Source: Mesorhizobium sp. (GTDB taxonomy: Bacteria > Pseudomonadota > Alphaproteobacteria > Rhizobiales > Rhizobiaceae). From it: a stretch of DNA of 64,000 nt. The notes under the pieces are model-generated. The model made no database searches. It worked only from the letters and a program-made list of their open reading frames with translations, and was not told the DNA's origin. Shown piece after piece: positions 23,223 through 45,125 of the stretch. The stretch is taken from the NCBI GenBank assembly GCA_004017535.1, contig SAJS01000008.1, forward strand, positions 62,001 through 126,000. The letters are read 5' to 3'. Positions within the stretch are counted from its first letter, which is position 1; every line of letters starts with the position of its first letter. The position numbers were made by a program, and so were the translations under genes.

Positions 23223-23299
23223 ACGGCTGGAACGATGGTTGAACGCAACTGAGTGACGATTGGCGAGGTTCGCACCTCGCCGCGCATTGGAGGAACGGA

Positions 23300-24055: not shown

Positions 24056-24081
24056 GCCGCGCCGGTACGGGAGAAGAATAG

Positions 24082-25164: not shown

Positions 25165-25443
25165 CTGCTCGCCCCGCCCGGAATCGGGCGACGCCATTGT
25201 TCTTCAGACCATCGACAAGAGACAGCACAAGCAGGCCATGCGCCACGCGCGCCGCCGAAGCCGTGCCGAAGCGCGGCCTCGTCGCTCATGTGGATTTCGA
25301 ACCGGTCACGGGTCTTTCCGCGAACGCCTCTATGACGGCCGCCGTCACGTCCCTGGAGGGCGTTTCGAAATGATCGCCGACCTCGACTCTTCGTAGCTTA
25401 GCTCGAAGTCGGTGAGCGGTTTCCCTGGCGCGTCGGCGCTCAT
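25165..25443 (-). pseudogene. frameshifted, 3'-truncated MaoC-like dehydratase remnant
   Basis: Reading the minus strand from an ATG at 25443, the first frame gives MSADAPGKPLTDFELSYEE, then loses the family. Shifting frame restores VEVGDHFETPSRDVTAAVIEAFAE, a second shift gives FEIHMSDEAALRHGFGG, and a third gives RVAHGLLVLSLVDGLKN. Placed end to end these are the N-terminal half of a MaoC/hot-dog dehydratase; the second half is missing at the ATPase gene end. At least three frameshifts and a truncation mean it is dead. Its ATG overlaps the AKR stop (ATGA), so it was once translationally coupled to that gene and likely supplied a hydratase step to the TetR-linked pathway. Confidence 0.75.
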
Positions 25444-26456
25444 GCCGGCACCGGAGCATCCTCTCGCAACAGCCCGTTCTTCTTGAGGTCTCGCCAGAAC
25501 TCGCCAGGGATCGGGTAACTGAACCAGGCCAGGTTCTGTTCGAGTTGCTGGACGGTACGGGTGCCGGCGCAGAAGGAGGGGATAGCAGGGTGCGCCACCA
25601 CGAACTGCAAGGCGGCGGCCGGCAGCGGCACGCCATGCGCGCGGCAGACCTCCTCGATCCTTGCCACTTTCTCCATGACGGGCTTTGGCGCCGGTGAATA
25701 ATTGTACTTCGCGCCGGGAACGGCGCCCGTGGCCAGGATGCCGGAATTGAAGCCTCCGCCGACCAGCACCGCCGCGCCGCGCTCGACGCAAAGCGGCAGG
25801 AACTCGTCGAGGGCTTCCTGTTCGAGCAGCGTATAGCGGCCCGCCAGCAGGAAGCAGTCGAAGTCGCGCTGCTTCAGCGCCTCGTGGCAAACCTGCCATT
25901 CGTTGACCCCAACGCCGATCGCCTTCACGACGCCTTCCGAACGCAGCTGCTCCAACGCCCGCCAGCAGCCATCCATCGCCTGCCGGAAGACCTCCGGCTG
26001 CTCGTCGCCACGGGTGAACCGATCGATGTCATGGATGAACAGCATGTCGATGTGTTCAAGCGCCAGTCGCTGCAGCGAATCCTCGAACGACCGCATTGTG
26101 CCGTCGTAGGAGTAATCGAAATTCATGGTGTTCGGCGCGGCATTCGACCACGGCGCGAAGTCGATCTCGGAGCGTTTCGCGGGCTTCAGCAGCCGGCCCA
26201 CCTTGCTGGCGAGGACGAACTCGTCGCGCTTCTTCCAGCGCAGCGAATGCCCGGCCCGCAGTTCGGAAAGGCCGTGGCCGTACATCGGCGCCGTGTCGTA
26301 GAAACGTATGCCCGCGTCCCATGCGGTCTGAATCATGGCATCCGCGGTCTGCTCGTCTATGGGCTGAAGGAAATTGCCGATAGGAGCGGTTCCGAACGCG
26401 AAGGCCGTAACGTTGAGGCCGGACCGGCCGAATACGCGCTTGTCAGATGGCTTCAT
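25440..26456 (-). CDS. aldo/keto reductase (D-threo-aldose 1-dehydrogenase-like)
   Basis: 338 residues, AKR fold. The tetrad is Asp/Tyr in FYDTAPMYGHGLSE, Lys in VLASKV and His in LFIHDID. The order of features and the SNAAPNTMNFDYSYDGTMRSFE segment fit the subgroup containing D-threo-aldose (L-fucose) dehydrogenases and pyridoxal 4-dehydrogenases, which oxidise a sugar or aldehyde to a lactone with NAD. A 7-2-7 operator-like repeat lies 15 bases before its start (26471-26486), divergent from the acyl-CoA dehydrogenase, so it belongs to the TetR-linked cluster. Substrate not assignable. Confidence 0.9.
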   Translation of the reverse strand: MKPSDKRVFGRSGLNVTAFAFGTAPIGNFLQPIDEQTADAMIQTAWDAGIRFYDTAPMYGHGLSELRAGHSLRWKKRDEFVLASKVGRLLKPAKRSEIDFAPWSNAAPNTMNFDYSYDGTMRSFEDSLQRLALEHIDMLFIHDIDRFTRGDEQPEVFRQAMDGCWRALEQLRSEGVVKAIGVGVNEWQVCHEALKQRDFDCFLLAGRYTLLEQEALDEFLPLCVERGAAVLVGGGFNSGILATGAVPGAKYNYSPAPKPVMEKVARIEEVCRAHGVPLPAAALQFVVAHPAIPSFCAGTRTVQQLEQNLAWFSYPIPGEFWRDLKKNGLLREDAPVPA

Positions 26457-26470
26457 GATATCCTCCCTTA

Positions 26471-26486
26471 GTAACCATCTAGTTAT
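26471..26486. promoter_or_regulatory. TetR-type operator-like repeat, copy 1
   Basis: GTAACCA-TC-TAGTTAT is an imperfect copy of the 7-2-7 inverted repeat, 15 bases upstream of the AKR start. A partial TAGTTA repeat follows directly. See the perfect copy at 26585. Confidence 0.6.
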
Positions 26487-26584
26487 TTCTAGTTAAGTTC
26501 GACCGAGGCCGCAAGCACTTGTAACGGCAACGCATGGCGATGCGAAGTCCGCCGCTTGACGCCGCCGACGATTCCAGCGTAGGA

Positions 26585-26600
26585 GTAACTAGATAGTTAC
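26585..26600. promoter_or_regulatory. TetR-type operator-like repeat, copy 2 (perfect)
   Basis: GTAACTA-GA-TAGTTAC is a perfect 7-base inverted repeat with a 2-base spacer, 15 bases upstream of the acyl-CoA dehydrogenase start. Together with copy 1 it brackets the divergent promoter region of the AKR and acyl-CoA dehydrogenase operons. Size and symmetry are typical of a TetR dimer site. Confidence 0.7.
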
Positions 26601-26615
26601 ATAGGGAGGTCGGCC

Positions 26616-27761
26616 GTGCCGCTGAGCGAAACGCAGCAGCAGGTGCGCGAGATGGCGCGCCAGTTTGCCGAGGATGTCATTCGTCCGGTTGCCGAGGCGC
26701 TTGATCGGGATGAGCGCTTTCCTGGCGAGATATATGAGCAGATGGGCGAGCTCGGTCTCTTCGGTATCGGCGTTCCGGAAGCCATGGGCGGTCCCGGCTT
26801 CGACACGCTTACCTATGCGCTGGTCATGGAAGAGCTGTCGCGCGGCTATGCGTCGGTCGCCGATCAATGCGGCCTCGTCGAGCTGATCAGCACCTTGCTT
26901 GTCCAGCATGGCAGCGAGGCGCAGCGGCAGCAATGGCTGGGTCCGGCCATGCGCGCCGAGAAGAAGGCTGCCTACTGCATCACCGAGCCGGAAGCCGGGA
27001 CCGATGTTTCCGGGATACGCACCACCGCGAGGCGCGACGGGCACGGATGGCGGCTGAACGGCGGCAAGATCTGGATCCACAACGCGCCGGTCGCCGACGT
27101 CGGTTTCGTGCTGGCGCGCACCGACAAGGACGCGGGCCATCGCGGCATGTCGATCTTCATCGTCGACCTGCACGCCAAGGGAATAGAGCGCGGTCCGAAG
27201 GAACATAAGATGGGTCAGCGGGCCAGCCAGGTCGGCGCGCTTAATTTCAACGATGTCGTCCTGGGTCCCGAAGCGCTGCTGGGCGAAGAAGGTCGCGGTT
27301 TCCACATGATGATGAGCGTGCTCGACAAGGGGCGTGTCGGCATCGCTTCGCTCGCTGTCGGCATAGCGCAGGCCGGGCTTGAGGCGGCGGTCGACTATGC
27401 CCAGCAGCGGCGTCAGTTCGGAAAGCCGATTGCCGATTTCCAGGGCGTGCAGTGGCTGCTTGCCGACATGGCGAAGGACATCGAGGCGGCCCGTCTGCTC
27501 GTGCGCAGCGCCGCCGAGAAGATCGATGCGGGGGAGAATGCAACCAAGGCCTGCTCGATCGCCAAATGTTTCGCGGGAGACATAGCCGTGGCGCGCACCG
27601 CCGATGCCGTGCAGGTCTTCGGCGGCTCCGGCTACATACGCGGCTTCGAGGTCGAGCGCCTCTATCGGGATGCCAAGATCACCCAGATCTATGAAGGCAC
27701 CAACCAGATCCAGCGCATGATCATCGCCCGCGAGCTCCTCAAGCATGGAGCCCGGGCGTGA
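26616..27761 (+). CDS. acyl-CoA dehydrogenase
   Basis: A 381-residue FAD-dependent acyl-CoA dehydrogenase of normal length. It shows the FAD/substrate motif YCITEPEAGTDVSG, the flavin segment LNGGKIWIHNAPVADV, the second signature QVFGGSGYIRGFEVERLYRDAKI, and the catalytic Glu in IYEGTNQIQ. It inserts a 2,3-double bond into an acyl-CoA and passes electrons to ETF. It starts at GTG 26616 after GGGAGG. Its stop overlaps the following SDR start. Together with the CoA-transferase and enoyl-CoA hydratase it supplies a beta-oxidation-like segment in a cluster otherwise typical of carbohydrate catabolism. Confidence 0.94.
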   Translation: MPLSETQQQVREMARQFAEDVIRPVAEALDRDERFPGEIYEQMGELGLFGIGVPEAMGGPGFDTLTYALVMEELSRGYASVADQCGLVELISTLLVQHGSEAQRQQWLGPAMRAEKKAAYCITEPEAGTDVSGIRTTARRDGHGWRLNGGKIWIHNAPVADVGFVLARTDKDAGHRGMSIFIVDLHAKGIERGPKEHKMGQRASQVGALNFNDVVLGPEALLGEEGRGFHMMMSVLDKGRVGIASLAVGIAQAGLEAAVDYAQQRRQFGKPIADFQGVQWLLADMAKDIEAARLLVRSAAEKIDAGENATKACSIAKCFAGDIAVARTADAVQVFGGSGYIRGFEVERLYRDAKITQIYEGTNQIQRMIIARELLKHGARA

Positions 27762-28540
27762 GTGCCGGATCGCGTCATGCAGCCTTCGTCACGGGATCGA
27801 GCCGCGGCATCGGGCTTGCGGCGGCATTGGAGCTCGCCCGGCGCGGGTTCGGCGTGGCGCTCAACGGCCCGTCCGATGACGAGGAATTGAAAGCCGCCGA
27901 AGCCGCCGTCGCTGCGCTCGGCGGCCCGGTCGCGCGTGTCGCGGGCGACGTTGCCGATCTGGGCGGCCACGAAAGCATGCTCGAAGCCGCCGAGGCCGCC
28001 ATCGGTCCCCTGTCGACGCTGATCAACAATGCCGGCGTGTCGGTAATCTCGCGCGGCGACCCGCTCGACGTCACGGAGGAGAGCTACGACCGCTGCCAGG
28101 CAATCAACACCAAGGCGCAGTTCTTCCTGTCGCAGCGTTGGGCCAGGCGGCTGCTTGCCCGCGAGCGCGATGACGGCCGCTTCTACAGCCTGATCAACGT
28201 CTCTTCCTCCAATGCCACGGCGGTGGCGGAGCCGCGCGCCGAATATTGCGTGTCCAAGGCCGGGTCCGCGATGGTCAGCCAGGTCTTCGCCGTCCGCCTC
28301 GGCCGCGAGAACATCGCCGTCTACGACATCAGGCCTGGCCTGATCGAAACGGCCATGACCAAGGCGGTCAGCGAGACTTACCAGCGCCGCATCGACGAGG
28401 AGGGGCTGACATTGATCCGCCGCCTCGGCAAGCCGGAAGATGTCGGTCGCGTCATGGCGACGCTCGCCACGGGCGAGCTGCCCTATACGACCGGCCACGT
28501 CATTGCCGTCGACGCGGGCATGCTGGTGCCGCGGTTCTGA
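27758..28540 (+). CDS. short-chain dehydrogenase/reductase (SDR)
   Basis: A 260-residue classical SDR. The cofactor loop is GSSRGIGLAAALELARRG, then NNAG; the catalytic set is the Ser in INVSSSNA and Tyr-X3-Lys in EYCVSK. It starts at a GTG whose GTGA overlaps the acyl-CoA dehydrogenase stop, so the pair is translationally coupled. The end GHVIAVDAGM is the usual SDR C-terminal loop. In this operon it may act on a hydroxyacyl or polyol intermediate. It carries the annotation-style signature of 3-ketoacyl reductase (FabG-like) proteins, which is not a substrate assignment. Confidence 0.92.
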   Translation: MSAGSRHAAFVTGSSRGIGLAAALELARRGFGVALNGPSDDEELKAAEAAVAALGGPVARVAGDVADLGGHESMLEAAEAAIGPLSTLINNAGVSVISRGDPLDVTEESYDRCQAINTKAQFFLSQRWARRLLARERDDGRFYSLINVSSSNATAVAEPRAEYCVSKAGSAMVSQVFAVRLGRENIAVYDIRPGLIETAMTKAVSETYQRRIDEEGLTLIRRLGKPEDVGRVMATLATGELPYTTGHVIAVDAGMLVPRF

Positions 28541-28567
28541 CTGCGGCATATCGTCAGGGAGAACGCC

Positions 28568-29716
28568 ATGATCATCCAACTGCCGGATAACACGGGCAGA
28601 CTTTCCGACTACCGGCTTCAGGGCAAGACGATTCCGGCCGCGCGATTGCCCTCCGATGCGCCACGTAGCGTGCTGTCGGCGGCCCATGTTGTGGCGGATC
28701 CTTTCAGCTTCAGCGATCCTGGCGGCCCCGCCGCCATCGACTGGAAGGCCACGATGGCATTCAGGCGCCATCTTCACGGCCTCGGCCTCGGCATTGCCGA
28801 GGCGATGGACACCGCGCAGCGTGGCATGGGCCTCGACTGGCCTTCGGCCTTGGAACTCATCCGCAGGACCAGGAGCGAGCTGCCCGACGCGCTCGTCTTC
28901 AACGGCGCCGGCACCGATCAGCTCGGACCGGCCGATGCACGCACGCTCGACGATGTTCGCCGAGCCTATTTCGAGCAGCTAGAGGCCATCCAGAAGGTCG
29001 ACGGCAGATTGATCGTCATGGCCAGCCGGGCATTGGCGGCCGTGGCGCGTTCGCCCGAGGATTATGTTTCGATCTATGGCGATGTGCTCGCGCGCTGCGA
29101 CAGGCCGGTGATCCTGCACTGGCTGGGAGAGATGTTCGATCCGGCCCTCAAGGGTTATTGGGGGGCCGGCCGCTTCGAGGATGCGCTCGAGACGGTCTTG
29201 GCGATCATCGGAAACAACACCGCTAGCGTCGACGGCATCAAGATTTCCCTCCTCGACAAGGAGAAGGAAATCGCGATGCGCCGCCGTCTGCCCGCCGGCG
29301 TGAAGATGTATACCGGCGACGACTTCAATTATCCGGAGCTGATCGCGGGTGACGAACAGGGGTTCTCGCACGCTCTGCTTGGTATCTTCGATCCCTTGGC
29401 GCCGGCCGCCGCCTACGCCATCGATCGGCTCGGCCGGGGCGATGGCCAGGGGTTCCACGCCGCGCTGGATCCTACCGTGCCGCTCGCGCGCCTGATCTTT
29501 CGAGCGCCCACCCAATACTACAAGACGGGGGTGGTGTTCCTCGCCTGGCTGAACGGGTTCCAGGATCATTTCATCATGCTGGGGGGCGCCCAGTCGATGC
29601 GGCCGCTGCCCTATTTCGTGGAAGTGTTCAAGCTGGCCGACGGCTGCGGCCTCCTGGCGGATCCTGAACTGGCTGCCGCACGGATGCGCAAGCTGCTTGC
29701 CCTTTACGGTCTCTGA
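28568..29716 (+). CDS. DUF993-family protein (DapA-like TIM barrel)
   Basis: 382 residues. The pattern RRHLHGLGLGIAEAMDTAQRGMGLDW near residue 65, VILHWLGEMFDPALKGYWG in the middle and GIKISLLDKEKEIAMR with a Lys in a KISLLD context fit the DUF993 family, which is distantly related to dihydrodipicolinate synthase/pyruvate aldolases. That Lys could form a Schiff base, but I cannot prove it from sequence. It lies 27 bases after the SDR and 8 bases before the TIM-barrel isomerase. This pairing recurs in rhizobial carbohydrate loci of unknown substrate. Function is best called unknown aldolase-like. Confidence 0.85.
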   Translation: MIIQLPDNTGRLSDYRLQGKTIPAARLPSDAPRSVLSAAHVVADPFSFSDPGGPAAIDWKATMAFRRHLHGLGLGIAEAMDTAQRGMGLDWPSALELIRRTRSELPDALVFNGAGTDQLGPADARTLDDVRRAYFEQLEAIQKVDGRLIVMASRALAAVARSPEDYVSIYGDVLARCDRPVILHWLGEMFDPALKGYWGAGRFEDALETVLAIIGNNTASVDGIKISLLDKEKEIAMRRRLPAGVKMYTGDDFNYPELIAGDEQGFSHALLGIFDPLAPAAAYAIDRLGRGDGQGFHAALDPTVPLARLIFRAPTQYYKTGVVFLAWLNGFQDHFIMLGGAQSMRPLPYFVEVFKLADGCGLLADPELAAARMRKLLALYGL

Positions 29717-29724
29717 ACAGCACT

Positions 29725-30585
29725 ATGCGCGATTTTGCGAACGAACATTCCGCACTGGCGCTGAACACAGCGACGCTCGGCCATAATCTGGACGGGCACG
29801 GGGCGGGCTGGCCGATCGAGCGAGTCGTCGATGCATGCGCCGAGCGCGGTATACGCGGGATTGTCTTCTGGCGTCGCGAAATCGGCGGCCGTGCTGTCGA
29901 GATCGGCGAGCGGGTCCGCGCGGCCGGCCTGAGTGTCGTCGGCCTGTGCCGCGCGCCTTACCTCACCGGCCCGCTGGCGCTGCCCGACCGCGCGGCGATC
30001 ATGGACGATTTCCGCGCCGCGATCGACATGGCCGCCGGTCTCGGCGCGCCTGTTCTGACCATCGTTTGCGGTGGGGTCGAGCCAGGAACGAAAGGCATCG
30101 GCGAGAGCCTCAAGCTGGTCGCGGATCGTGTCGCCGAAGCCGCGGCCTACGCGGCGGCCAGCAACGTTCGCCTGGCGCTGGAGCCGCTGCATCCGGTTTA
30201 TGGTGGCGACCGCTCCTGCCTGGTGACGATGCGCGACGCGGTCGATCTTTGCCTTGCCATCGATGCGCCCAACGTTGGCGTCGCGGCCGACGTGTACCAT
30301 GTCTGGTGGGATCGCACGCTAGCCGGCGAATTGCTGCGGGCTGGGCCGGGACGCATTTTCGGCTACCACCTTTGCGATTGGCTGGCGCAAACACGCGATG
30401 TGCTGCTCGACCGCGGCATGATGGGAGACGGCGTGGCCGACCTGAAGGCGATCCGCGCGGCGGTGGAAGCGGCCGGCTATGACGGACCATGCGAAGTGGA
30501 GGTGTTCTCGGCGCAGAACTGGTGGAAGCGTGACCCTGGGTACGTGCTGGACGCCTGCCTGGAGCGCTTCCGCTCCGTTTGTTGA
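29725..30585 (+). CDS. sugar phosphate isomerase/epimerase-like TIM barrel protein
   Basis: A 286-residue xylose isomerase-like (AP endonuclease 2 superfamily) TIM barrel. Candidate metal ligands are the Glu of RLALEPLHP, the Asp and His of GVAADVYHVWWD, the His of FGYHLCDW and the Glu of CEVEVFS. Relatives include tagatose/fructose 3-epimerases, inosose dehydratases (IolE) and hydroxypyruvate isomerases. It follows the DUF993 gene by 8 bases, ending the operon that begins with the acyl-CoA dehydrogenase. It probably isomerises or dehydrates a ketose-like or cyclitol intermediate. Confidence 0.88.
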   Translation: MRDFANEHSALALNTATLGHNLDGHGAGWPIERVVDACAERGIRGIVFWRREIGGRAVEIGERVRAAGLSVVGLCRAPYLTGPLALPDRAAIMDDFRAAIDMAAGLGAPVLTIVCGGVEPGTKGIGESLKLVADRVAEAAAYAAASNVRLALEPLHPVYGGDRSCLVTMRDAVDLCLAIDAPNVGVAADVYHVWWDRTLAGELLRAGPGRIFGYHLCDWLAQTRDVLLDRGMMGDGVADLKAIRAAVEAAGYDGPCEVEVFSAQNWWKRDPGYVLDACLERFRSVC

Positions 30586-30699
30586 AGACAGAGGCTGGAT
30601 AGCCGGGCAGCGTCCGGTAATATCTGGTTCAAGGGACTGTTGAGCGGTCAGCCGCCACCTCGCGAACAGACTTCTACCGCGTTCAGATCGGTCCCGGGG

Positions 30700-31470
30700 T
30701 CAGTCTCTCGACCGGCGGCCCTTTTCCCGGAAGGCAGCCAGGCCCGCCCGAAGGTCGTCGCTGCCGGCGGCGATACGTCCGGCAAACGCATCCAGGACAC
30801 GCTCCCGTTCCTCGCCTTCGGCAGCGTTGATGAGCATTTTGGCAAGCTCCGTGGCGGTAGCTGACCTGCCTGCGACGATAGCGGCAAGCTGTTCGGCCGC
30901 CGCGAGGCCATCACCCTTGCCGACGACCTTGTCGACAAGCGACAATCTCAAGGCCTCGTCGGCGGAATAGACCTCGCCGAAGAGCGCCATGCGCCGGATC
31001 AACTGGGTGCCAAAACGGCGAGCCGTGCGCTGGGTGCCCGACCAGCCCGGTGTGATCCCAAGGCCGGTTTCAGGCAGACCGATGCGGGCGTGGCTCTCGG
31101 CGATCCGATAGTCGGCGCAGGCCGCAAGTTCCAGGCCTCCGCCAAGGCAATGGCCGTTGAGGACGGCAATGACCGGTTGCGAAAGCCTGGCGAGCGCGTC
31201 GAAGCCGGCATGGCCGTCGCGGATCCAGTGGCGCGCGAACTCCGCCGGGTCGAGCGCGCTCCAGGCGGCGACGTCGCCGCCCGCGGAGAACGACTTCTCG
31301 CCGTCGCCGGTCAGGATCAGCACCTTCGCCGCGGAACGCTCCACCGCCCTGCACAGCGGCACGAGCGCATCGACCATCGCGGCATCGAGCGCATTGAGCT
31401 TCTCAGGCCGGCGGATGGTCATACGCGCGACCGCTCCGTCGAAGCTGAGGTAGAGACGGGGATCGCTCAC
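30700..31470 (-). CDS. enoyl-CoA hydratase/isomerase (crotonase family)
   Basis: 256 residues. The oxyanion-hole segments are SFSAGGDVAAW and NGHCLGGGLELA; both catalytic glutamates of crotonase can be placed, one in GGGLELAACAD and one in IGLPETGLGITPG. It should hydrate a trans-2-enoyl-CoA or isomerise its double bond. It starts at GTG 31470, whose GTGA overlaps the CoA-transferase stop; the longer frame from 31638 lies inside that gene. It is convergent with the TIM-barrel gene across 114 bases with no clear terminator. With the acyl-CoA dehydrogenase and CoA-transferase it completes an activation-oxidation-hydration series. Confidence 0.92.
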   Translation of the reverse strand: MSDPRLYLSFDGAVARMTIRRPEKLNALDAAMVDALVPLCRAVERSAAKVLILTGDGEKSFSAGGDVAAWSALDPAEFARHWIRDGHAGFDALARLSQPVIAVLNGHCLGGGLELAACADYRIAESHARIGLPETGLGITPGWSGTQRTARRFGTQLIRRMALFGEVYSADEALRLSLVDKVVGKGDGLAAAEQLAAIVAGRSATATELAKMLINAAEGEERERVLDAFAGRIAAGSDDLRAGLAAFREKGRRSRD

Positions 31471-33038
31471 AGCCGCAACCCCATCGGCTGGTCGAGGAAC
31501 AGCGCCGCGTCCATCAGCTTCAGTGCCGGCGAGACCAGGAGAGGAGCCGCCGCCTGCCGCAGGACGTCGCGTTCCAGGTCGAGCCCGGGGGCTATCTCGG
31601 CGACGACCAGGCCATCCGTCGTCAGGCGGATGACGCATCTTTCCGTCACATAGGTGACGTCCTGGCCCTGGCTGACGGCGCGCGCGCCTGAGAAGCTGAC
31701 CTGGTCCACCTTCGGTACGATCTTTGCGACCTTGCCTTCGTTGTCGATGATCAGCTCGCCGTTCTCCAGCCGCATCTTCGCGCCGGCGTTGAAGTTGCCG
31801 GAGAACACGATCTTGCGCGCCCGCGAGGTGATGTCCACGAAGCCGCCGGCGCCGGCGGTGCGATGCGGGGTCGAGGAAAGCCGCGAGACGTTGACCGATC
31901 CATCGGAGCCGATTTCGAGGAACGACAGCAAGGAGCAGTCGAAGCCTCCGGCCTGGAAATAGGTGAAAAGGTGCGGGGAGGCGACGAAGGCCTCCGCGTT
32001 CGAGGCGCAGCCGAACTTGAAGTCGAGCAACGGCACGCCGCCCACCGGCCCTTGCTCGATCACCCAGGTGACGGCGCCGTGCAGGCCCTCTTCGATCAGG
32101 ATGCGAGGCACGTTGGCGGAGATTCCGAATCCGATATTGACCGCCCAGCCCGCTCGAAGCTCCTGCGCGACGCGGCGCGCGATGACCTTGGAGACATTGT
32201 ATTCCGGCGTGCGGAATGTGTGCAGCGGCCGGAACAGTTCTCCTGATATCGCCGGGTCGTAAGCCGTCGCCGTGGTCTGCAGCTGGTCCGGCGCCTCGAC
32301 GATGAAATCCACCAGGATACCGGGCACATGTACATCATGCGGCCGCAGCGTGCCCTGAGCCGCGACGCGCTTGACCTGGGCAATGACGATGCCGCCGCAG
32401 TTGCGCGCCGCAAGCGCCATTTCCATGGCGCCGAGCGTCGCGCCTTCCTGCTCGAAGGTGAGGTTTCCCTTCTCGTCGGCGGTAGTCGCGCGGATGATCG
32501 CCACATCCGGCCGGAGGGGAGGGAAGTGAAGCCAGGTCTCGCCGTTGAATTCGACGCGCCGCACGATTGGCGCCTTCCGGGCCGAAGCGTTCATGGCTCC
32601 GCCCTCGAGCATCGGATCGACAAATGTCTCCATGCCGACCTTGGTCAACACACCCGGACGCTGCGCCGCGCCGTCGCGCAGCATGTCGAACACGATCCCG
32701 GAGGGGAAGTTCCAGGCCGCCACATCCTCGGCAAGGATACGCTGCCAGATCAGCGGGGGCTCGGCGTTGGTCGGTCCTGAGGGATATGAGCCGCCGATGA
32801 TGCGGCTGATCAAGCCCGGCAGGGCGATGTGATCGACCCCCTTGGTGCCGAACATGTCGCCAGCGGCAATCGGATGGATGGTGGTGATGTTGCGCGGTGC
32901 CCCTTCGGCCAGGAAACGTTTGCCAAGGGCTTCCAGAACGGCATCCGGGCAAAGCAGACCGGACGACGAATTGACCGCTACCACCGCTCCGTCGCCTATC
33001 GCGGCGACAGCCTCCGCTGCGGACCTGACCTTGCTCAC
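31467..33038 (-). CDS. acyl-CoA:acid CoA-transferase (fused alpha-beta, propionate/acetoacetate type)
   Basis: 523 residues, in which the two CoA-transferase halves are fused as in propionate CoA-transferase (Pct) and YdiF. The N-terminal domain includes DGAVVAVNSSSGLL; the C-terminal half has GWAVNIGFGISANVPRIL and then TWVIEQGPVGGVP, whose Glu should form the thioester with CoA. It activates an organic acid using a CoA donor such as acetyl-CoA. GGAGAGG precedes the GTG at 33038; the frame to 33164 is an unsupported extension across the operator. An operator-like repeat lies 29 bases upstream, shared with the divergent AKR at 33154. Confidence 0.92.
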   Translation of the reverse strand: MSKVRSAAEAVAAIGDGAVVAVNSSSGLLCPDAVLEALGKRFLAEGAPRNITTIHPIAAGDMFGTKGVDHIALPGLISRIIGGSYPSGPTNAEPPLIWQRILAEDVAAWNFPSGIVFDMLRDGAAQRPGVLTKVGMETFVDPMLEGGAMNASARKAPIVRRVEFNGETWLHFPPLRPDVAIIRATTADEKGNLTFEQEGATLGAMEMALAARNCGGIVIAQVKRVAAQGTLRPHDVHVPGILVDFIVEAPDQLQTTATAYDPAISGELFRPLHTFRTPEYNVSKVIARRVAQELRAGWAVNIGFGISANVPRILIEEGLHGAVTWVIEQGPVGGVPLLDFKFGCASNAEAFVASPHLFTYFQAGGFDCSLLSFLEIGSDGSVNVSRLSSTPHRTAGAGGFVDITSRARKIVFSGNFNAGAKMRLENGELIIDNEGKVAKIVPKVDQVSFSGARAVSQGQDVTYVTERCVIRLTTDGLVVAEIAPGLDLERDVLRQAAAPLLVSPALKLMDAALFLDQPMGLRL

Positions 33039-33066
33039 GCTACCTCTCCATAAGGCTTGGCAATAA

Positions 33067-33082
33067 GTAACTAGATAGTTAT
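33067..33082. promoter_or_regulatory. TetR-type operator-like repeat, copy 3
   Basis: GTAACTA-GA-TAGTTAT differs from the perfect copy at 26585 by one base. It lies in the 115-base gap between the divergent CoA-transferase and AKR genes, placed to control both. Confidence 0.7.
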
Positions 33083-33153
33083 AAACGTGATATAGCCGCC
33101 TGCGGCTTGCAAGGCAAGCTCCGCGCCGACGGCAACCAGGTGGGAGGATTTCG

Positions 33154-34076: not shown

Positions 34077-34119
34077 AGGCGCGCGATCGCCAAGAGCGAT
34101 CCGAAGTGACCGGCAAATG

Positions 34120-37220: not shown

Positions 37221-37285
37221 GGAATGCCTCCGTTCTGGCGGTGCGCCGGCCGCCCGCCACCGTGGCAGGCGGGTCGCGCCGGCGC

Positions 37286-38317
37286 CTAGTTCAAAATGAT
37301 TTGCGTCTTGAGATCTCGAGGCCGCTCGGCCAGGGTCTCGAAGGCGCGCTGGATGTCGTCGAGCGGGAAGGTCGCGCGTGTGAACGCCTCGGTCCGGAAC
37401 CGGCCATGCGACAAGAGCGCCAGCGCATCGTGCATGTCTTCGCCCATGCCGGCGACCGAGCCCTTGAGACTGTTCTCCTCGAGGATGGTGCGCAGGATGT
37501 GGACCGGCACTGTGTCGTTGGGTCCGGTGAGGCCGAAGAAGGCGACATGGCCGCCCTTGCGGATGAGCTCGAAAGCGAGCGTGTAAAGCCGCGGCGAACC
37601 GACGCTCTCGATCACGAGATCCGCGCCGCGCCCGCCGGTCCTTTTCAGGACCTCCGCCTTGAGTTGGGCAGGATCGGCGACAGCTGCATCCGCACCGGCT
37701 TCAAGGGCAAGGCGGCAACGGTCTTCCGACAGGTCGGCGACGATGATTGGCGCGGCGCCGCACAGGCGCATCATCTGGACATGCAGATTGCCGATTGGTC
37801 CCGCGCCGAGGATCACGACGGACTGGCCGAAACTCGCATGCGCCTTGCGCGCGGCCCGCACCACGCAGGACACCGGCTCCGTCAGGGCAAGCACCTCGAC
37901 CGGCACATCGTCCGGAGCCGGTATGACAAGCCTGGCCGGCACGCACACATATTCGGCGAAGGCGCCGTCGCGCCCGATGCCCACCTGCGTCATGGTCGGG
38001 CAGTTCAGGATCTCGTTGCGGCGACACCAATAGCACTGGCCACAGCCGACATTGATGTCCGCGACGCAGGTCGTGCCTGGCTTGATATGCTTCACACGCT
38101 CGCCTGTCGCGGCGACCGTCCCGGCGAACTCGTGGCCCGGCACCAACGGCAGCCGATCGGCCGCATAGTGACCGTTGAACATATGAATATCGGTGCCGCA
38201 TATGCCGGTCCGCTGGACACGGATCAAGGCGTCGTCGGATCCCACTTCCGGAACGGCGACCTCGCGCAGGTCGAAACGGTGCGGAGCGGTCAGGACGGCG
38301 GCGCGCATTGTTGCCAT
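37286..38317 (-). CDS. zinc-dependent alcohol/polyol dehydrogenase (MDR family)
   Basis: A 343-residue medium-chain dehydrogenase. Catalytic zinc ligands lie in GICGTDIHMFNGHY and PLVPGHEFAG; the structural zinc Cys cluster CGQCYWCRRNEILNC is intact; the Rossmann motif is ILGAGPIGNLHVQMM. It is closest to sorbitol, L-idonate 5- or galactitol dehydrogenases rather than simple ethanol dehydrogenases. The stop abuts the ABC permease gene (next stop codon region at 38319) on the same strand, so uptake and oxidation are in one operon. A polyol or sugar acid oxidised at a secondary hydroxyl is the likeliest substrate. Confidence 0.92.
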   Translation of the reverse strand: MATMRAAVLTAPHRFDLREVAVPEVGSDDALIRVQRTGICGTDIHMFNGHYAADRLPLVPGHEFAGTVAATGERVKHIKPGTTCVADINVGCGQCYWCRRNEILNCPTMTQVGIGRDGAFAEYVCVPARLVIPAPDDVPVEVLALTEPVSCVVRAARKAHASFGQSVVILGAGPIGNLHVQMMRLCGAAPIIVADLSEDRCRLALEAGADAAVADPAQLKAEVLKRTGGRGADLVIESVGSPRLYTLAFELIRKGGHVAFFGLTGPNDTVPVHILRTILEENSLKGSVAGMGEDMHDALALLSHGRFRTEAFTRATFPLDDIQRAFETLAERPRDLKTQIILN

Positions 38318-38318
38318 C

Positions 38319-39260
38319 TCACTTCACCGTGCGAAGCTTGGAGCGGTCGATGGTCAAGGCGATGGCTGCGATCAGCACCAGGCCGAACACCATCTGTTGC
38401 TGCGTCGCCGCGATGCCGAAATAGAGCATCGAGGCGCGGATGACCGCCACGATCAGTGTGCCGATCGCGGTATTGAGCACACCGCCGACGCCGCCCGTCA
38501 GCGGCGTTCCGCCGACAAGCACCGCGACGATGGCCGGCAGCAGGAAGCCGTTGGCGATCGTCGGCGCGCCGCCCGACAGCTTGACGGAGAACAGCAGCCC
38601 GGCCACCGCGGCCAGCCCTCCGGATATCGCAAAGGCGAGGATTTTGTAACGGGCGACGTTGAGACCGGACGCGGCCGCGGCCAGTTCGCCGGCGCCCACG
38701 GCCTTCAGCGCGCGTCCGAGGACCGTTCGCCGTTCTATGAGCAGGCAGATCGCCAGCAGGCCGATGGCGATGAAGAGCTCGTGCGGCACGACGCCGGTTC
38801 GACCGATCATCCAGCCGAACGTCTCGTTGCGCTGGGTGGCGTCCATGTTCAGGGCGCGGTTGCCGGAAAGCCATTGCGCCACCGAGAAGCAGATGCCGCC
38901 GACGGCCAGCGTGGAGATGAAGGATGGGACATACATGCGGGTTGTCAGGTAGCCGGAGAGTGTTCCCAGCGTGAATCCGGCAAGGATGCAGAGTCCCGCG
39001 ACCCAGATCCCCAGCGGCGCCAGGTAGACCGAGGCGACGACGGTGATCATGTTCGCCATCGACTGTGCCGACAGGTCGATGCCGCCGATGTAGATGGCGA
39101 AGGTCAGTCCCAGCGCCATGATGAACAGCGGCACGATATCGCCTGCAAGGCTCAGCAGATTGGCCGGCTTGAGGAAGCTCGGATCAGCGATGCCGACGAT
39201 CGTGACCAGGACCAGAAGAGTGATCCAGGGGAAGTGCGGCTTGAGGCGTTGGATGTCCAT
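38319..39260 (-). CDS. CUT2 sugar ABC transporter permease (RbsC-like)
   Basis: A 313-residue permease of the ribose/branched-chain type (BPD_transp_2), with about 8-10 membrane segments. Family signatures include TFAIYIGGIDLSAQSMANM, FISTLAVGGICFSVAQWLSG and VLVGGTPLTGGVGGVLNT near the end. It is one of two permeases in this CUT2 operon, which probably pair as a heterodimer. It lies 9 bases downstream of the ATPase gene. Confidence 0.93.
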   Translation of the reverse strand: MDIQRLKPHFPWITLLVLVTIVGIADPSFLKPANLLSLAGDIVPLFIMALGLTFAIYIGGIDLSAQSMANMITVVASVYLAPLGIWVAGLCILAGFTLGTLSGYLTTRMYVPSFISTLAVGGICFSVAQWLSGNRALNMDATQRNETFGWMIGRTGVVPHELFIAIGLLAICLLIERRTVLGRALKAVGAGELAAAASGLNVARYKILAFAISGGLAAVAGLLFSVKLSGGAPTIANGFLLPAIVAVLVGGTPLTGGVGGVLNTAIGTLIVAVIRASMLYFGIAATQQQMVFGLVLIAAIALTIDRSKLRTVK

Positions 39261-39269
39261 GGAGGCCTC

Positions 39270-40775
39270 TCAGATCATGTAGTGCAGAAGGTCGTAGAGC
39301 GTCGGCTTGGAACCGGGCACGCAGTCGAAGCGCTTCTGGATCTCGCCGTCCTTGATGACGACGATGGTGTGGGAGAGGCCGATCGCCTCTTCGAGCGTGT
39401 CGGCGACCAGGACAACGCCGACCCCGTCGTCGCACATCTCCCTGATCATGTCGTACACATCCTCCTTGGCGCCGATGTCCAGGCCTCGGGTCGGATGATC
39501 GAGCAGCATGATGTCGGAGCCGCCCGACCGCCATTTGGCGAGCACGACCTTCTGCTGGTTGCCGCCGGAAAGGTTGCCGCAGTCGGCATATTCGGAGCTT
39601 GCCTTGATGGCGAGCTTGCCGATCCATTTCCTGGCCAGGGCCCGCTCGTCGGCCACGTCGAGCCAGCCCATCCGCGCGTAGTGCGGCATTTGCGAGAGCG
39701 TCATGTTCTCGTAGACATTCATGCCGGCCACGATGCCCTCGATCTTGCGCTCGCGCGGCACATAGCCGACGCCGCGCTCCACCGCTCCGCGGGCGGTCAG
39801 CCTGGAGACGGTCTCGCCCTTGATCTTCAGCGTGCCCTTGGTGGGCGTGCGCATGCCGTAGATTGTTCGAAGGATCGCTTCGCGGCCGGAGCCCTCGGTG
39901 CCGACCAGGCACAGGACCTCGCCGGCATGCAGCGTCAGCGAGATATCGTGAACCCGTCCCGGCAGGTCCACGCCCGACAGCTCCACCAGCGGCCTCGTCG
40001 CGTCGTAGGGCTTTTGCCGCTGCTCACGGTAATATTCCTTGTCGACATGGCGGCCGACCATCTTGTGCTGGATCGCCTCCGGCGTCGCCGCGCCGCGCGA
40101 GACGACATCGACCACCTGGCCGTCCTTCATCACGTAGATGCGGTCCGAGAGCTCCATTACCTCGTCCATGCGATGGGATACGAAGATGAACGAAGCGCGC
40201 GTCGTCAGTTCCCGCACGAGCTTGAACAACAGCTTCACCTCTTCCTCGGCCAGCACCGAGGTCGGCTCGTCGAGCAGGACGACCAGATGGCCCTGCACCC
40301 GCTCCTCCAGCGTCAGCACCTTCGCCAGTTCCACAAGCTGGCGCTGCGCGAAGGAAAGGCTTGAGGTGATGGTGCGCGGATCGATATCGAGCTTGACCTT
40401 TGCAAGCTGCTTCCTGGCGGCTTTGGCCATCGCCTTCCAGTTGACCACGCCGAAGCGTGAGAACTGGTCTTCATAGCCCAGGAAGATGTTTTCCATCACG
40501 GACAGGTTGGTGATCAGCGATTGCTCCTGAAACACCATGCCGATGCCTCGCTCCATGGCGTCGCGCGGGCCGCCGAAGCGGACAGGCTTGCCATCGATGA
40601 GCATCTCGCCGCCGTCGGGCTGGTAGGCGCCGTAGATCACCTTCATGAGCGTGGATTTGCCAGCGCCATTCTCGCCTACCAGCCCGACGATCTCGCCCCG
40701 GCTGATGGAAAAGTCGACCGATTTCAGCGCATGGACGCCCGGAAACTTCTTTTCGACGGCTTTCAATTCATACAT
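39270..40775 (-). CDS. CUT2 sugar ABC transporter ATP-binding protein (RbsA-like, altered second site)
   Basis: A 501-residue protein with two nucleotide-binding domains. NBD1 has Walker A GENGAGKSTLMKV and Walker B LLDEPTSVL. In NBD2 the Walker A is degenerate (GTEGSGREA), as is usual for this family, but the Walker B region reads LLDHPTRGLD: the expected catalytic Glu is His (codon read as GAT CAT CCG on the coding strand). The signature LSGGNQQK is intact. NBD1 can still hydrolyse ATP, so the transporter may work, with altered asymmetry. It lies between two permeases of the same operon. Confidence 0.92.
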   Translation of the reverse strand: MYELKAVEKKFPGVHALKSVDFSISRGEIVGLVGENGAGKSTLMKVIYGAYQPDGGEMLIDGKPVRFGGPRDAMERGIGMVFQEQSLITNLSVMENIFLGYEDQFSRFGVVNWKAMAKAARKQLAKVKLDIDPRTITSSLSFAQRQLVELAKVLTLEERVQGHLVVLLDEPTSVLAEEEVKLLFKLVRELTTRASFIFVSHRMDEVMELSDRIYVMKDGQVVDVVSRGAATPEAIQHKMVGRHVDKEYYREQRQKPYDATRPLVELSGVDLPGRVHDISLTLHAGEVLCLVGTEGSGREAILRTIYGMRTPTKGTLKIKGETVSRLTARGAVERGVGYVPRERKIEGIVAGMNVYENMTLSQMPHYARMGWLDVADERALARKWIGKLAIKASSEYADCGNLSGGNQQKVVLAKWRSGGSDIMLLDHPTRGLDIGAKEDVYDMIREMCDDGVGVVLVADTLEEAIGLSHTIVVIKDGEIQKRFDCVPGSKPTLYDLLHYMI

Positions 40776-40782
40776 TGCGGCC

Positions 40783-41766
40783 TCACTTGACGAACGCGAC
40801 CGCGCGCCGGTCCGTCGACAGGATGACCGCGATGATGACCAGCAGCCCGAGAACGGCGGCCTGCAGGAAATCGGGCAGGCCGATGACCACCATGCCGTTG
40901 TTGATGACGGCGACGATCAGGACGCCGACGAGCGTGTTCCACACGCCGCCGATGCCACCCCATAGCGCCACCCCGCCGACCACCACCGAAGTGATGGACA
41001 TGAACATGAAGTTCGATCCGGTGACGGATTCGGCCTGGCCGAGCTTCGCCACCTGCAGGATCGCCGCGATCGCGTAAAAGAAGCCGGCAAGCGAGAAGCC
41101 GGCCATCCTCACATGCTGCACCCGCACGCCCGAGGCATGGGCGAGTTCCTCGCCGCCGCCGACCGCATAAAAGTAACGCCCAAGGCGGGTTTGGGACTGG
41201 ATGAACCAGGCGAGGACGAGGCAGAGGCCCGCGACATAGACCATCAGCGGAAAGCCGAGGATGCGCCAGGTCAGCAGGGCGCGGAACGTCGGATCGTCAA
41301 ATTTGACGATGTCGCCGCCGGTCAGCAGGATCGCGGCGCCCGTGCCGACGAATCCGAGCGCGAGGCTCGCCATGAAGGATGGTATCTTCAGCTTGACGTG
41401 GATGAAACCGTTCACCAGGCCGGTCGCGGCCCCGACGGCAAGAATGACCGGGATTGCGATCCAGCCGCCCGACGCGAGCGTTCCGCCGAGCGCCAGCATC
41501 AGGAAGCAAAAAAGGACGGCCGTCAGGGAAACGACGCCCTCCATGGAAAGGTCGATGGAACCCATCACGATGATGAAAGTCACCCCGATCGCCACCATGA
41601 GCGCGGGCGCCGCCGCGATCGCGATGCGCGCGAAGTTGCGTTGCGACAGGAATGAGGGGTTTATCGCCGTGAACAGCACTATGAGCGCGAGAAGCACCAT
41701 GAAGGGCGCCCAGCGGATCGCGTTCTCCCGCGTGAGGATGCGTGGCAACTCCGGCCTCCCGTCCAA
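40783..41766 (-). CDS. CUT2 sugar ABC transporter permease (RbsC-like)
   Basis: A 327-residue permease of the RbsC family with 8-10 membrane segments. Signatures: FIIVMGSIDLSMEGVVSLTAV near residue 63, FMASLALGFVGTGAAILL, and the C-terminal VVGGVALWGGIGGVWNTLVG. It is the second permease of the operon and lies 7 bases upstream of the ATPase gene. A stem-loop (41783-41806) separates it from the upstream binding-protein gene. Confidence 0.93.
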   Translation of the reverse strand: MDGRPELPRILTRENAIRWAPFMVLLALIVLFTAINPSFLSQRNFARIAIAAAPALMVAIGVTFIIVMGSIDLSMEGVVSLTAVLFCFLMLALGGTLASGGWIAIPVILAVGAATGLVNGFIHVKLKIPSFMASLALGFVGTGAAILLTGGDIVKFDDPTFRALLTWRILGFPLMVYVAGLCLVLAWFIQSQTRLGRYFYAVGGGEELAHASGVRVQHVRMAGFSLAGFFYAIAAILQVAKLGQAESVTGSNFMFMSITSVVVGGVALWGGIGGVWNTLVGVLIVAVINNGMVVIGLPDFLQAAVLGLLVIIAVILSTDRRAVAFVK

Positions 41767-41782
41767 GTGTGCCGTGTAGGGG

Positions 41783-41806
41783 GAGCGGCCCGTTTCAGGG
41801 CCGCTC
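41783..41806. terminator. intercistronic stem-loop after the binding-protein gene
   Basis: A perfect 9-base stem (GAGCGGCCC and its complement) with a 6-base loop GTTTCA lies between the binding-protein stop (41821) and the first permease start (41766). Like the hairpin at 8867, it lacks a U-run and may set the binding protein to permease ratio. Confidence 0.5.
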
Positions 41807-41820
41807 GATCGAGCTTCGTA

Positions 41821-42933
41821 TCACTTGTACTTGATCTGGCCGTTGCTCGGTCCCCAGAAATCCTTCCAATTGTAGGAAGGAACGGCGTCCAGATATTTGG
41901 CCTTGAAGTCCGCGGCGTCCTTCTTGGTGACGAGGACCGTCGGGCCGTAGAATTCGCGGTGCTCCTTCGGTTCCTCCGAAGGCTTGAAGGCGCCGGTCGC
42001 GGCGTAATAGGCGAGCGCCGCCGTGATGCCGCCGCCCCAGTGCGGATTGGTGAAGACGGTCGCCAGGAGCTTGCCGTCCATCACCAGCTTCACGGCTTCC
42101 GGATTTCCGTCATAGGCGACGATCGGCATATTCTCGATCCCCTCGGCGCGCAGCGCCTCGATCACGCCATAGGCGATGTTGTCGTTGGCGCAGTGCACTC
42201 CGGTGATCTTGTCGCCGAAGCGCGTCAGGAAAGACGCCATCAGCTCCGTGCCCTTGGTCGTGTCCCAGTCGGCGGGCTGGGCATCGAGAAGCTCGATATC
42301 GGGAAAGTCCTTCAAGGCGTTCTTCAAGCCGTTCAGACGCTCGATTGCCGGGTTGTTGGCGGCAATGCCACCCAGATGCACGACGCCACCCTTGCCGCCC
42401 ATGGCGTCGAACAGGATCCGCGCCGTCTGCTCGGCCGGCTTCTCGTCCGACCAGGTCATGTGCGAGACGTAATTGTCGCTGATGTCCCACGGGTGCAGGT
42501 CGTCGGTCTTGTTCCAGATCGTGGAAATGTAGGCGCCGGCGTCGCGCACAGCCTCGACCACCGGACGGGCGTTCGGGCTGTCATTGGCGTCGCAAGCGAT
42601 AGCGCACTTGCCGCCGGTCTTGGCCAGGAAGGCCTTGATGTCGGCCAGCGACTTTTCGGATGACCCTTCGTTGATCAGCGAGACGAGGGAATCCTTGGGC
42701 TTGCCGAGGGACTCCACGAATGCCTCGCCGCCCGACACGATCGAGTTCCAGTAAGCCGAGGCGCGGTCGCGGTACGACCAGGCGATCGCCGGGTCGCTGA
42801 TCGCCGCCCGGGCAGCGCCGCCGCCGAAGGCGAATGGCACGGCCATCGCCCCCATGCCGGCAGCCGTGGCAAGCAGGAAATTGCGCCGATTGACGATCTC
42901 GCGCTCGATGAAATCCTTGATGAAAGTCGACAT
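41821..42933 (-). CDS. CUT2 sugar ABC transporter substrate-binding protein, Tat-type signal
   Basis: A 370-residue periplasmic binding protein of the RbsB-like family, somewhat long. The N-terminus carries a twin-arginine motif (NRRNFLLAT near residue 16) with likely cleavage after ARA near residue 42. Ligand-binding family features: ISTIWNKTDDLHPWDIS and GVHCANDNIAYGVIEAL. The start at 42933 has GGGAGGT upstream; the frame to 42984 is an extension with no match. It heads the CUT2 operon next to the TetR gene, with an operator-like site 96 bases upstream of its start. Ligand: an unidentified sugar or polyol. Confidence 0.93.
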   Translation of the reverse strand: MSTFIKDFIEREIVNRRNFLLATAAGMGAMAVPFAFGGGAARAAISDPAIAWSYRDRASAYWNSIVSGGEAFVESLGKPKDSLVSLINEGSSEKSLADIKAFLAKTGGKCAIACDANDSPNARPVVEAVRDAGAYISTIWNKTDDLHPWDISDNYVSHMTWSDEKPAEQTARILFDAMGGKGGVVHLGGIAANNPAIERLNGLKNALKDFPDIELLDAQPADWDTTKGTELMASFLTRFGDKITGVHCANDNIAYGVIEALRAEGIENMPIVAYDGNPEAVKLVMDGKLLATVFTNPHWGGGITAALAYYAATGAFKPSEEPKEHREFYGPTVLVTKKDAADFKAKYLDAVPSYNWKDFWGPSNGQIKYK

Positions 42934-43028
42934 GTTACCTCCCATTTGGCGACAGCCCGCAAGGGCGGGCCGTCTATTGAGCAACCTCGAGAAGCCAGGC
43001 CGTCCAAACCGCTCTCTTGGTCGCTGAA

Positions 43029-43044
43029 TGCACCATCTAGTTAC
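43029..43044. promoter_or_regulatory. TetR-type operator-like repeat, copy 4 (half-conserved)
   Basis: TGCACCA-TC-TAGTTAC keeps one perfect half-site (TAGTTAC) and a weaker other half. It lies in the gap between the divergent CUT2 binding-protein and TetR genes, fitting control of transport and autoregulation. Confidence 0.5.
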
Positions 43045-43124
43045 TTCCTGAATGTGCGAGAGTCAAGCGGTGGCACGGTGCGCGGCCTGTTGACTTCTTG
43101 GACAATTGAAATGACTTTCAGCGC

Positions 43125-43835
43125 ATGACCGATCGCCGACAGCACGCTGGAACTGGAACCAAGGGAGCGGCCAAAGTGGACGCAACGTCCGGAAAATCAG
43201 GCAATGTCGCCAAGAAGAAGCGGCTTCGGGATGCCGAAGCGACCAAGCTTCGTATTCTGGAAGCGGCGAAGAGCGATTTCGCCAAGAACGGCCTCGGCGG
43301 CGCGCGTGTCGATGTTATCGCGGCCAAGGCCAACGCCAACAAGCGTATGATTTATCATTACTTCGGCAGCAAGGACGGTCTTTTCCAGACTGTGGTGGAA
43401 AATGCCTATCTGGACATCCGCACGGCTGAGCAGAAACTTCATCTCGACGACCTGGAACCGAGGGATGCCCTTGAACGCCTCGTGCGGTTTACATGGCAGT
43501 ATTATCTGAAGAATCCGGAGTTCATTACCCTGGTCAACAGCGAGAACCTTCACCGCGGCAAGCATGTGAAGAAGTCCGAGCTGATCAAGACCGCCAGTCG
43601 CAAATTCGTCGCCATGGTGTCGGGCATACTTGAGCGGGGCGTCAGCAGCGGCGACTTCCGCGCCGGTATCGACCCTGTGCAGCTCAACATCACGATCGCC
43701 GCGATCGGATACTACTATCTGACCAACAGGTTCACAGGCTCGATTATTTTCGAGCGCGACCTCATGGAGAAAAACGCTCTAAATGAGCGTCTGGAATTCA
43801 ATATCGACACCATCATGCGGCTTGTGAGCGCCTGA
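43125..43835 (+). CDS. TetR-family transcriptional regulator
   Basis: A 236-residue TetR/AcrR regulator. The helix-turn-helix covers roughly residues 38-85 (ILEAAKSDFAKNGLGGARVDVIAAKANANKRMIYHYFGSKDGLF split across the motif), and a helical ligand domain follows. An N-terminal extension of about 35 residues, Gly/Lys/Arg rich, precedes the DNA-binding domain. It is divergent from the CUT2 operon. Four related 7-2-7 repeats in promoters from 26.5 to 43.0 kb are the natural candidates for its binding sites, which would make it the repressor of the whole cluster. The inducer is unknown. Confidence 0.93.
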   Translation: MTDRRQHAGTGTKGAAKVDATSGKSGNVAKKKRLRDAEATKLRILEAAKSDFAKNGLGGARVDVIAAKANANKRMIYHYFGSKDGLFQTVVENAYLDIRTAEQKLHLDDLEPRDALERLVRFTWQYYLKNPEFITLVNSENLHRGKHVKKSELIKTASRKFVAMVSGILERGVSSGDFRAGIDPVQLNITIAAIGYYYLTNRFTGSIIFERDLMEKNALNERLEFNIDTIMRLVSA

Positions 43836-45097: not shown

Positions 45098-45125
45098 GGA
45101 ATACTCCTGGGTTGTGAGTGGGTTC

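Follow-up and report, generated by a model that had tools for sequence, protein, structure and literature searches.

A predicted TetR regulon in Mesorhizobium links a sugar importer with an L-sorbosone-dehydrogenase relative, CoA enzymes and a DUF993 protein

Closest described systems

The vitamin C precursor route of Gluconobacter oxydans contains a pair of sorbose and sorbosone dehydrogenases. According to passages of PMC10602560, the L-sorbosone dehydrogenase of strain WSH-004 (7w5l) is more strongly specific for L-sorbosone as substrate; a review passage gives L-sorbose as the only substrate oxidised by the membrane-bound L-sorbose dehydrogenase (PMC9171043). We analysed a gene cluster of Mesorhizobium sp. 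(contig SAJS01000008.1, assembly GCA_004017535.1) in which a relative of the sorbosone enzyme occurs together with a putative TetR-controlled operator set. The window, to which all positions refer, is the whole stretch of 64,000 nucleotides. A TetR operator regulon linking a CUT2 importer, oxidoreductases and CoA enzymes, as a first-pass annotation had proposed, is well supported at the sequence level by the placement of sites in the genome, their co-occurrence with the regulator across genomes, footprinting by conservation and recognition-helix covariation. We lean towards a regulon, repressed by TetR, that imports and degrades an L-sorbose-type sugar through an aldehyde dehydrogenase (ALDH), a GMC oxidoreductase, a CoA module and a DUF993 protein.

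The GMC/ALDH front pair is already known. The Mesorhizobium ALDH shares with the G. oxydans enzyme the Cys295/Cys296 redox pair as well as Glu171 and Arg445, which are L-sorbosone contacts in the docking described in passages of PMC10602560, and the genes for GMC and ALDH overlap here. What differs is the setting: here a sugar importer, CoA enzymes, DUF993 and the TetR operator set accompany the pair. The open-licence passages searched contained no text placing sorbose/sorbosone dehydrogenases in such a context, and the regulator, the operator set, the full gene set and a role for DUF993 are undescribed in them. The earlier statement that no described pathway has this gene set thus needs narrowing, since the ALDH belongs to a part that is known.

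The oxidation of deoxyribonate by Klebsiella michiganensis, which according to passages of PMC6365646 proceeds through acyl-CoA intermediates to glyceryl-CoA, glycerate and glycerate kinase, offers a second comparison. Handling of a sugar acid as CoA thioester, CoA activation, a CoA-transferase, a hydroxyacyl-CoA-type dehydrogenase and an exit through glycerate kinase are features in common. Still, we consider it improbable that our cluster encodes a relative of this pathway. The Klebsiella cluster includes a CoA-synthetase, a thiolase and a lactonase, none of which was found among the window open reading frames (ORFs) scanned, and direct membership in the pathway was rejected. Moreover, our cluster adds an acyl-CoA dehydrogenase (ACAD), DUF993 and a TIM-barrel isomerase. 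The PMC6365646 passages name neither an acyl-CoA dehydrogenase nor DUF993, and a search of the paper's main text for "duf" and "enoyl" gave no match.

Gfo/Idh-DUF993-TIM clusters of the SMc04130-SMc04133 type have homologues of the DUF993 protein (4dnh is SMc04132) and of the TIM-barrel protein (3ju2 is SMc04130), and a related TetR was present in 27 of 36 such loci. In contrast to our cluster, all 36 lack the CoA-transferase, enoyl-CoA hydratase (ECH), ACAD, GMC and ALDH at the identity thresholds set (65% for ACAD, 50% for ALDH, 45% for GMC; with 10-kb flanks the counts are lower bounds). In the passages of PMC12542648, a paper on AniA/PhaR, the only mention of SMc04132 and SMc04133 is as entries of a protein table.

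Operator sites and the TetR regulator

The observation that palindromic sites join the promoters of the cluster was confirmed. The motif, GTAACTANNTAGTTAC (GTAACTA-NN-TAGTTAC), is a 7-2-7 inverted repeat. Scanning the window returned 26471 (2 mismatches), 26585 (none) and 33067 (1 mismatch); shuffled sequences gave an expectation of 0.05 sites and reached three in 0 of 100 cases. The first-pass annotation had listed four such promoter sites. Three of them hold at up to 2 mismatches, and the fourth, at 43029, has 4 mismatches, yet it is conserved in 13 of 13 intergenic regions examined.

Distances of the sites are given to the start codons. Operator 1 (GTAACCATCTAGTTAT, 26471..26486) lies 14 nt upstream of an aldo-keto reductase gene, AKR1, and Mesorhizobium orthologues carry counterpart sites with 2-3 mismatches. 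The perfect palindrome GTAACTAGATAGTTAC (operator 2, 26585..26600) lies 15 nt upstream of ACAD. Operator 3 (GTAACTAGATAGTTAT, 33067..33082) is located between the divergent genes for the CoA-transferase (28 nt) and a second aldo-keto reductase, AKR2 (71 nt). Operator 4 (TGCACCATCTAGTTAC, 43029..43044) is asymmetric and lies 95 nt upstream of the gene for the sugar-binding protein (SBP) and 80 nt upstream of TetR. Its core (C/T)GCAC(C/T)A..T(A/G)GTTACTT is kept in all TetR/SBP intergenic regions examined, with a conserved GTCAAG beyond it; these came from 8 Mesorhizobium genomes, Sinorhizobium sp. K101, Sagittula, two Boseongicola metagenome-assembled genomes (MAGs) and one Rhizobiales MAG, and in L124 two registers tie. 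On the minus strand TTGACT and TAACTA are separated by 17 nt, a spacing that would put operator 4 at the -10 position expected for the importer promoter, with a weak -10 match. A promoter scan at the operators called no promoter, the -10 of the importer included.

The operators precede six units, namely AKR1; ACAD-SDR-DUF993-TIM, where SDR denotes a short-chain dehydrogenase/reductase; CoA-transferase-ECH; AKR2; SBP-permease-ATPase-permease-zinc dehydrogenase-ALDH-GMC; and TetR itself. The operons are supported by the start/stop overlaps of GMC with ALDH and of ECH with the CoA-transferase. The regulator (43125..43835, plus strand) has both the PF00440 helix-turn-helix (TetR_N) and the PF17938 C-terminal domain (TetR_C_29), with the recognition helix NKRMIYHYF. 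We infer that it represses the six units through the four operators and is released by an intermediate, for which an acyl-CoA or a keto-acid is a guess.

The source genome (6.86 Mb) contains the motif at 12 places with up to 3 mismatches (24 rows, as a palindrome is reported on both strands) and at 4 places with up to 2, three of which are in the cluster. A genome scan at up to 3 mismatches, suggested earlier as a check, therefore put three of the four best places in the cluster but missed 43029. Some counts speak against the motif. The reversed pattern is commoner in the source genome (82 against 12 places at up to 3 mismatches), and across 99 Mesorhizobium genomes at up to 1 mismatch it has 24 places (22 genomes), the motif 23 (15 genomes). 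In addition, 6 of the 26 ACAD-type loci described below have no site with up to 2 mismatches, including the TetR-bearing Gluconobacter sp. Gdi. Because the reversed control has more places, the case for the motif rests on where the sites are, not on how many there are. The sole place with up to 2 mismatches outside the cluster, C2:199000-199015 (L003), is a palindrome, GTAACGAGATCGTTAC, about 100 nt upstream of an ORF that by eye resembles an aldo-keto reductase.

A site with up to 1 mismatch was present in all 13 of the 99 genomes with a TetR orthologue (E ≤ 1e-70) and in 2 of the 86 others (Fisher p 1.7e-14). One exception, G092, is a genome that is 79% complete, and its two sites fall inside a copy of the cluster; in the other, G088, the site is followed by a Gfo/Idh-DUF993 cluster whose TetR is 44% identical. 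Such clusters account for 22 of the 23 places, and the remaining one (G107:C34:399), close to the end of its contig, lies upstream of a CUT1 transporter.

A second set consisted of 80 loci (1,489,082 bases) chosen by DUF993 sequence and not by motif, which are not phylogenetically independent. At up to 2 mismatches these gave 43 hits, against a mean of 1.23 and a maximum of 12 with 200 permuted half-sites; at up to 1 mismatch there were 14 hits, against a mean of 0.06 and a maximum of 2. Sites were found in 20 of 26 ACAD-type loci, in 3 of 38 loci containing Gfo/Idh and in 2 of 16 others. Chance palindromes were rejected on the basis of the shuffles, the genome-wide placement and this permutation test.

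The recognition helix varied with the site. Among 58 loci with a readable helix (L177 was excluded as unreadable), 22 of the 26 with YHYF had a site, compared with 4 of the 32 with other helix sequences. In a subset of 43 loci the numbers were 11 of 14 and 4 of 29 (Fisher p 6e-5); the loci on which the pattern was first noticed also served to test it, which makes the p-values optimistic. A site was present in 0 of 17 relatives with YYHV, most of them from Bradyrhizobium. At a first look, Bradyrhizobium-type loci such as L150 showed neither the motif nor another shared palindrome before their Gfo/Idh genes. That the palindrome belongs to another regulator, with the TetR gene as a bystander, is very unlikely in our view. 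Binding of TetR to the sites is predicted, and the four sites beside a different helix and the four YHYF loci lacking one would fit a bystander. Against this stand the presence of the site in every genome with a TetR orthologue, the conserved operator at the TetR promoter and the covariation of the helix, and the bystander explanation was rejected on co-occurrence and covariation.

Substrate, CoA enzymes and the DUF993 protein

The ALDH (35724..37220, minus strand) gives an indication of the substrate. It aligned gap-free with 7w5l, with 380 of 490 residues identical and a score of 892 bits, whereas the next different PDB protein scored 527. Twelve catalytic, redox and substrate-contact positions are discussed in the passages of PMC10602560, and the Mesorhizobium enzyme keeps eleven of them (N163, F164, E171, R172, E262, G293, C295, C296, V297, R445 and E471), with M167 replaced by leucine. 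Its sequence thus places it as an L-sorbosone-dehydrogenase relative in the ALDH-SNDH subfamily. In Gluconobacter sp. P1C6_b an ALDH 98.8% identical to the crystallised enzyme is encoded in the order TetR-ALDH-GMC-CoAT-GK-ACAD-SDR-DUF993-TIM-ETF-ETFQO (CoAT, CoA-transferase; GK, glycerate kinase; ETF, electron transfer flavoprotein; QO, its quinone oxidoreductase), with a 2-mismatch site before CoAT. The crystallised enzyme therefore most likely originates from a cluster of this kind. This suggests that the industrial enzymes may belong to a larger degradation pathway, in which case an industrially important enzyme pair would gain a physiological context and a candidate operator and regulator.

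The GMC oxidoreductase (34120..35724, minus strand), which overlaps the ALDH stop, is a candidate FAD-dependent L-sorbose dehydrogenase by virtue of its pairing with the ALDH. Carbohydrate-type transporters (CUT2, CUT1, Sugar_tr MFS) accompany several versions of the cluster, and that of Acetobacter malorum is adjoined by an OprB porin and an MFS_1 transporter. Searches with the SBP, AKR1 or the zinc dehydrogenase named no substrate. An L-sorbose-type sugar is the likely substrate. The CUT2 system would take up such a hexulose, the GMC enzyme would oxidise its C1 alcohol to the osone, and the ALDH would convert the osone to a 2-keto-L-gulonate-type acid. The alcohol-aldehyde-acid part of the chemistry proposed in the first-pass annotation fits this order, with the ALDH now named; the subsequent enoyl-CoA and hydroxyacyl-CoA steps found no support.

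For the later steps, we propose that the CoA-transferase, the ACAD (passing electrons to ETF) and the SDR handle the acid or C3 fragments as CoA thioesters and that the DUF993 protein cuts the carbon chain. The TIM isomerase would interconvert a hydroxypyruvate-like C3 product, and carbon would exit as glycerate, converted by glycerate kinase to 2-phosphoglycerate. One idea is that the distal half yields L-glycerate, which as its CoA ester would be converted to usable D-glycerate or tartronate semialdehyde. This part, with an ACAD acting on a sugar acid and DUF993 as a novel class I aldolase that supplies glycerate metabolism, is tentative. If true, 2-keto-L-gulonate might be drained by a route additional to the L-idonate pathway already described, and sugar catabolism would include a chemically unusual step, that of an acyl-CoA dehydrogenase.

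Several points weigh against degradation of an L-sorbose-type sugar by this route. According to passages of PMC13209538, one route that 2-keto-L-gulonate is known to take in G. oxydans is the L-idonate pathway, which makes the CoA-thioester and aldolase steps less probable; that pathway needs none of the CoA genes of the cluster. From its distant likeness to 2,5-diketogluconate reductase, AKR2 could serve the L-idonate pathway. The GMC protein is without a close characterised match, its best PDB hit being choline dehydrogenase (378 bits). The SDR beside DUF993 has no clear role if the ALDH product is already 2-keto-L-gulonate. The Mesorhizobium cluster itself is without glycerate kinase, and in our judgement L-sorbose is not a sugar that a legume symbiont would usually be expected to use.

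The CoA enzymes raise the alternative that the same regulon serves another ketose, a polyol or a branched sugar, in the order acid, acyl-CoA, enoyl-CoA and hydroxyacyl-CoA. The ACAD (26616..27761, plus strand), nearest to short-chain enzymes, has a YEGT motif, and by eye the two glutamates of ECH (30700..31470, minus strand), the glutamate of the YdiF/FadX-type CoA-transferase (31467..33038, minus strand) and the S-Y-K residues of the SDR (27758..28540, plus strand; NF009386/PRK12745, 321 bits with a cut-off of 250) are present, all of which we take to be catalytic. ETF and ETF-QO genes in clusters of relatives and the breadth of the GMC family also agree with another substrate. On the other hand, no thiolase was found in Pfam scans of 20 window ORFs, and ECH was unseen in all six Acetobacter/Gluconobacter stretches (21 kb) that keep ACAD and SDR, of which L131 ends at the CoA-transferase. 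The ALDH, with 11 of the 12 positions as in L-sorbosone dehydrogenase, also argues against it, and we regard this alternative as possible but less likely. Plain beta-oxidation is doubtful and was rejected, as no thiolase was found among the 20 ORFs scanned and ECH was not seen in every cluster version. ECH and the AKRs look accessory, because they are unseen or scattered in the six acetic-acid-bacterial stretches (AKR1 is in L131).

In the L-sorbose-type route, chain cleavage is tentatively assigned to the DUF993 protein (28568..29716, plus strand; PF06187, 586 bits) on the basis of its fold and a conserved lysine. Its AlphaFold model has a mean pLDDT of 90.6. Foldseek returned 4dnh first, followed by structures of the dihydrodipicolinate synthase/N-acetylneuraminate lyase (DHDPS/NAL) superfamily, with probability 1.00 and, for DHDPS structures among the 50 matches listed, target TM scores of 0.67-0.84. 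The model shares with this superfamily the DHDPS-like TIM barrel and a lysine on strand 6, and differs from it by an identity of 12-17% and a profile comparison that is not significant. The lysine, K225, lies in strand 221-227 within VDGIKIS and does not vary in either of two alignments, of 10 and 21 sequences; we assume that it corresponds to the Schiff-base lysine of the family, and His184 stands where DHDPS has Tyr133. The hhalign probability for DUF993 against DHDPS, only 1.1%, counts against the assignment, and the alignment pairs K225 with a conserved DHDPS-family lysine. The model is consistent with a class I aldolase, which might cleave a 2-keto-hexonate to hydroxypyruvate and glyceraldehyde, for further conversion by the TIM protein and glycerate kinase. 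The TIM protein (29725..30585, plus strand), a sugar isomerase/epimerase-like AP_endonuc_2 member, was closest in NCBIfam to 2-oxo-tetronate, 5-keto-gluconate and hydroxypyruvate isomerases/epimerases, all far below cut-off. No mention of DUF993 by name was found in open-licence papers, and an aldolase role, if true, would provide a testable function for a family with a solved structure.

Gene content, distribution and variants

Pfam and NCBIfam profile scans bore out the gene families assigned in the first-pass annotation. The CUT2 importer is complete and encoded on the minus strand, with permease 1 (38319..39260) and permease 2 (40783..41766), both BPD_transp_2 proteins (PF02653), a double-ABC ATPase (39270..40775; PF00005 twice) and the Peripla_BP_4 protein SBP (41821..42933; PF13407; PDB 2rjo, E 3e-79), whose leader, read by eye, is of the twin-arginine type. 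The zinc-dependent dehydrogenase (37286..38317) is on the same strand. AKR1 (25440..26456, minus strand; PF00248) is distantly like L-galactose dehydrogenase (PDB, 111 bits), and AKR2 (33154..33975, plus strand) scored 240 bits with DkgB, below the cut-off of 327. Likely starts are downstream of the longest-ORF starts for the CoA-transferase (GTG, 33038), ECH (GTG, 31470), GMC (35724) and SBP (ATG, 42933).

The cluster with its sites recurs in Rhizobiaceae, Rhodobacterales and Acetobacteraceae. Plasmids of Sinorhizobium, Ensifer, Rhizobium, Paracoccus and Sagittula carry its core, as does pSymA of S. meliloti 1021 at about 767-787 kb, where the sites have 1 and 2 mismatches; the core also occurs in Acetobacter, Gluconobacter, Pseudomonas and Caballeronia genomes. 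Clusters of relatives have extra genes for glycerate kinase, ETF alpha/beta, ETF-QO or Dabb proteins; the source genome has a glycerate kinase (65%) and an ETF alpha (81%) outside the cluster. Some kind of DUF993 is present in 92 of the 99 Mesorhizobium genomes.

Within 1.8 kb upstream of DUF993, the 80 loci had an SDR in 32 cases, Gfo/Idh in 36, both in none and neither in 12. The exclusion is not absolute, as L162 has, besides the SDR, a Gfo/Idh-domain gene after TIM. SDR-type loci hold ACAD (26), ALDH (15) and GMC (23/24), and Gfo/Idh-type loci none of these. The CoA-transferase was found in 25 loci of the SDR type, in none of the Gfo/Idh type and in 5 of the remaining 12.

Directly upstream of the cluster, at 20138-25158 on the plus strand, is a CUT1-type sugar ABC importer. 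Downstream of TetR (44063-49051) are a second zinc dehydrogenase, an ABC-2 permease and an RbbA-type ABC protein (1559 bits). Neither flank has a motif site with up to 3 mismatches. Elsewhere in the source genome (C44:207000-226999), a second DUF993 is near a LacI regulator, a CoA-transferase (69% identical), ECH, SBP_bac_1 and a 48%-SNDH-like ALDH, probably a related pathway under another regulator.

Besides a related TetR and the motif, two Gfo/Idh-DUF993-TIM clusters (L039, L047) have a tripartite tricarboxylate transporter (TctA/TctC), which suggests an acid substrate there. A contig labelled as an actinobacterium, Enemella evansiae TN21-6 (L134), bears an alphaproteobacterial-type core with sites, which may reflect recent transfer or contamination. 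In four clusters there is an insertion made up of a second GMC (50-52% identical to ours) and a CUT1 ABC importer, at 5181-10819 in L213, 3308-8942 in L096, 13311-19001 in L119 and 10159-15885 in L107. In three of the four this module carries its own motif site (up to 2 mismatches), and the modules may be alternative front ends under one TetR.

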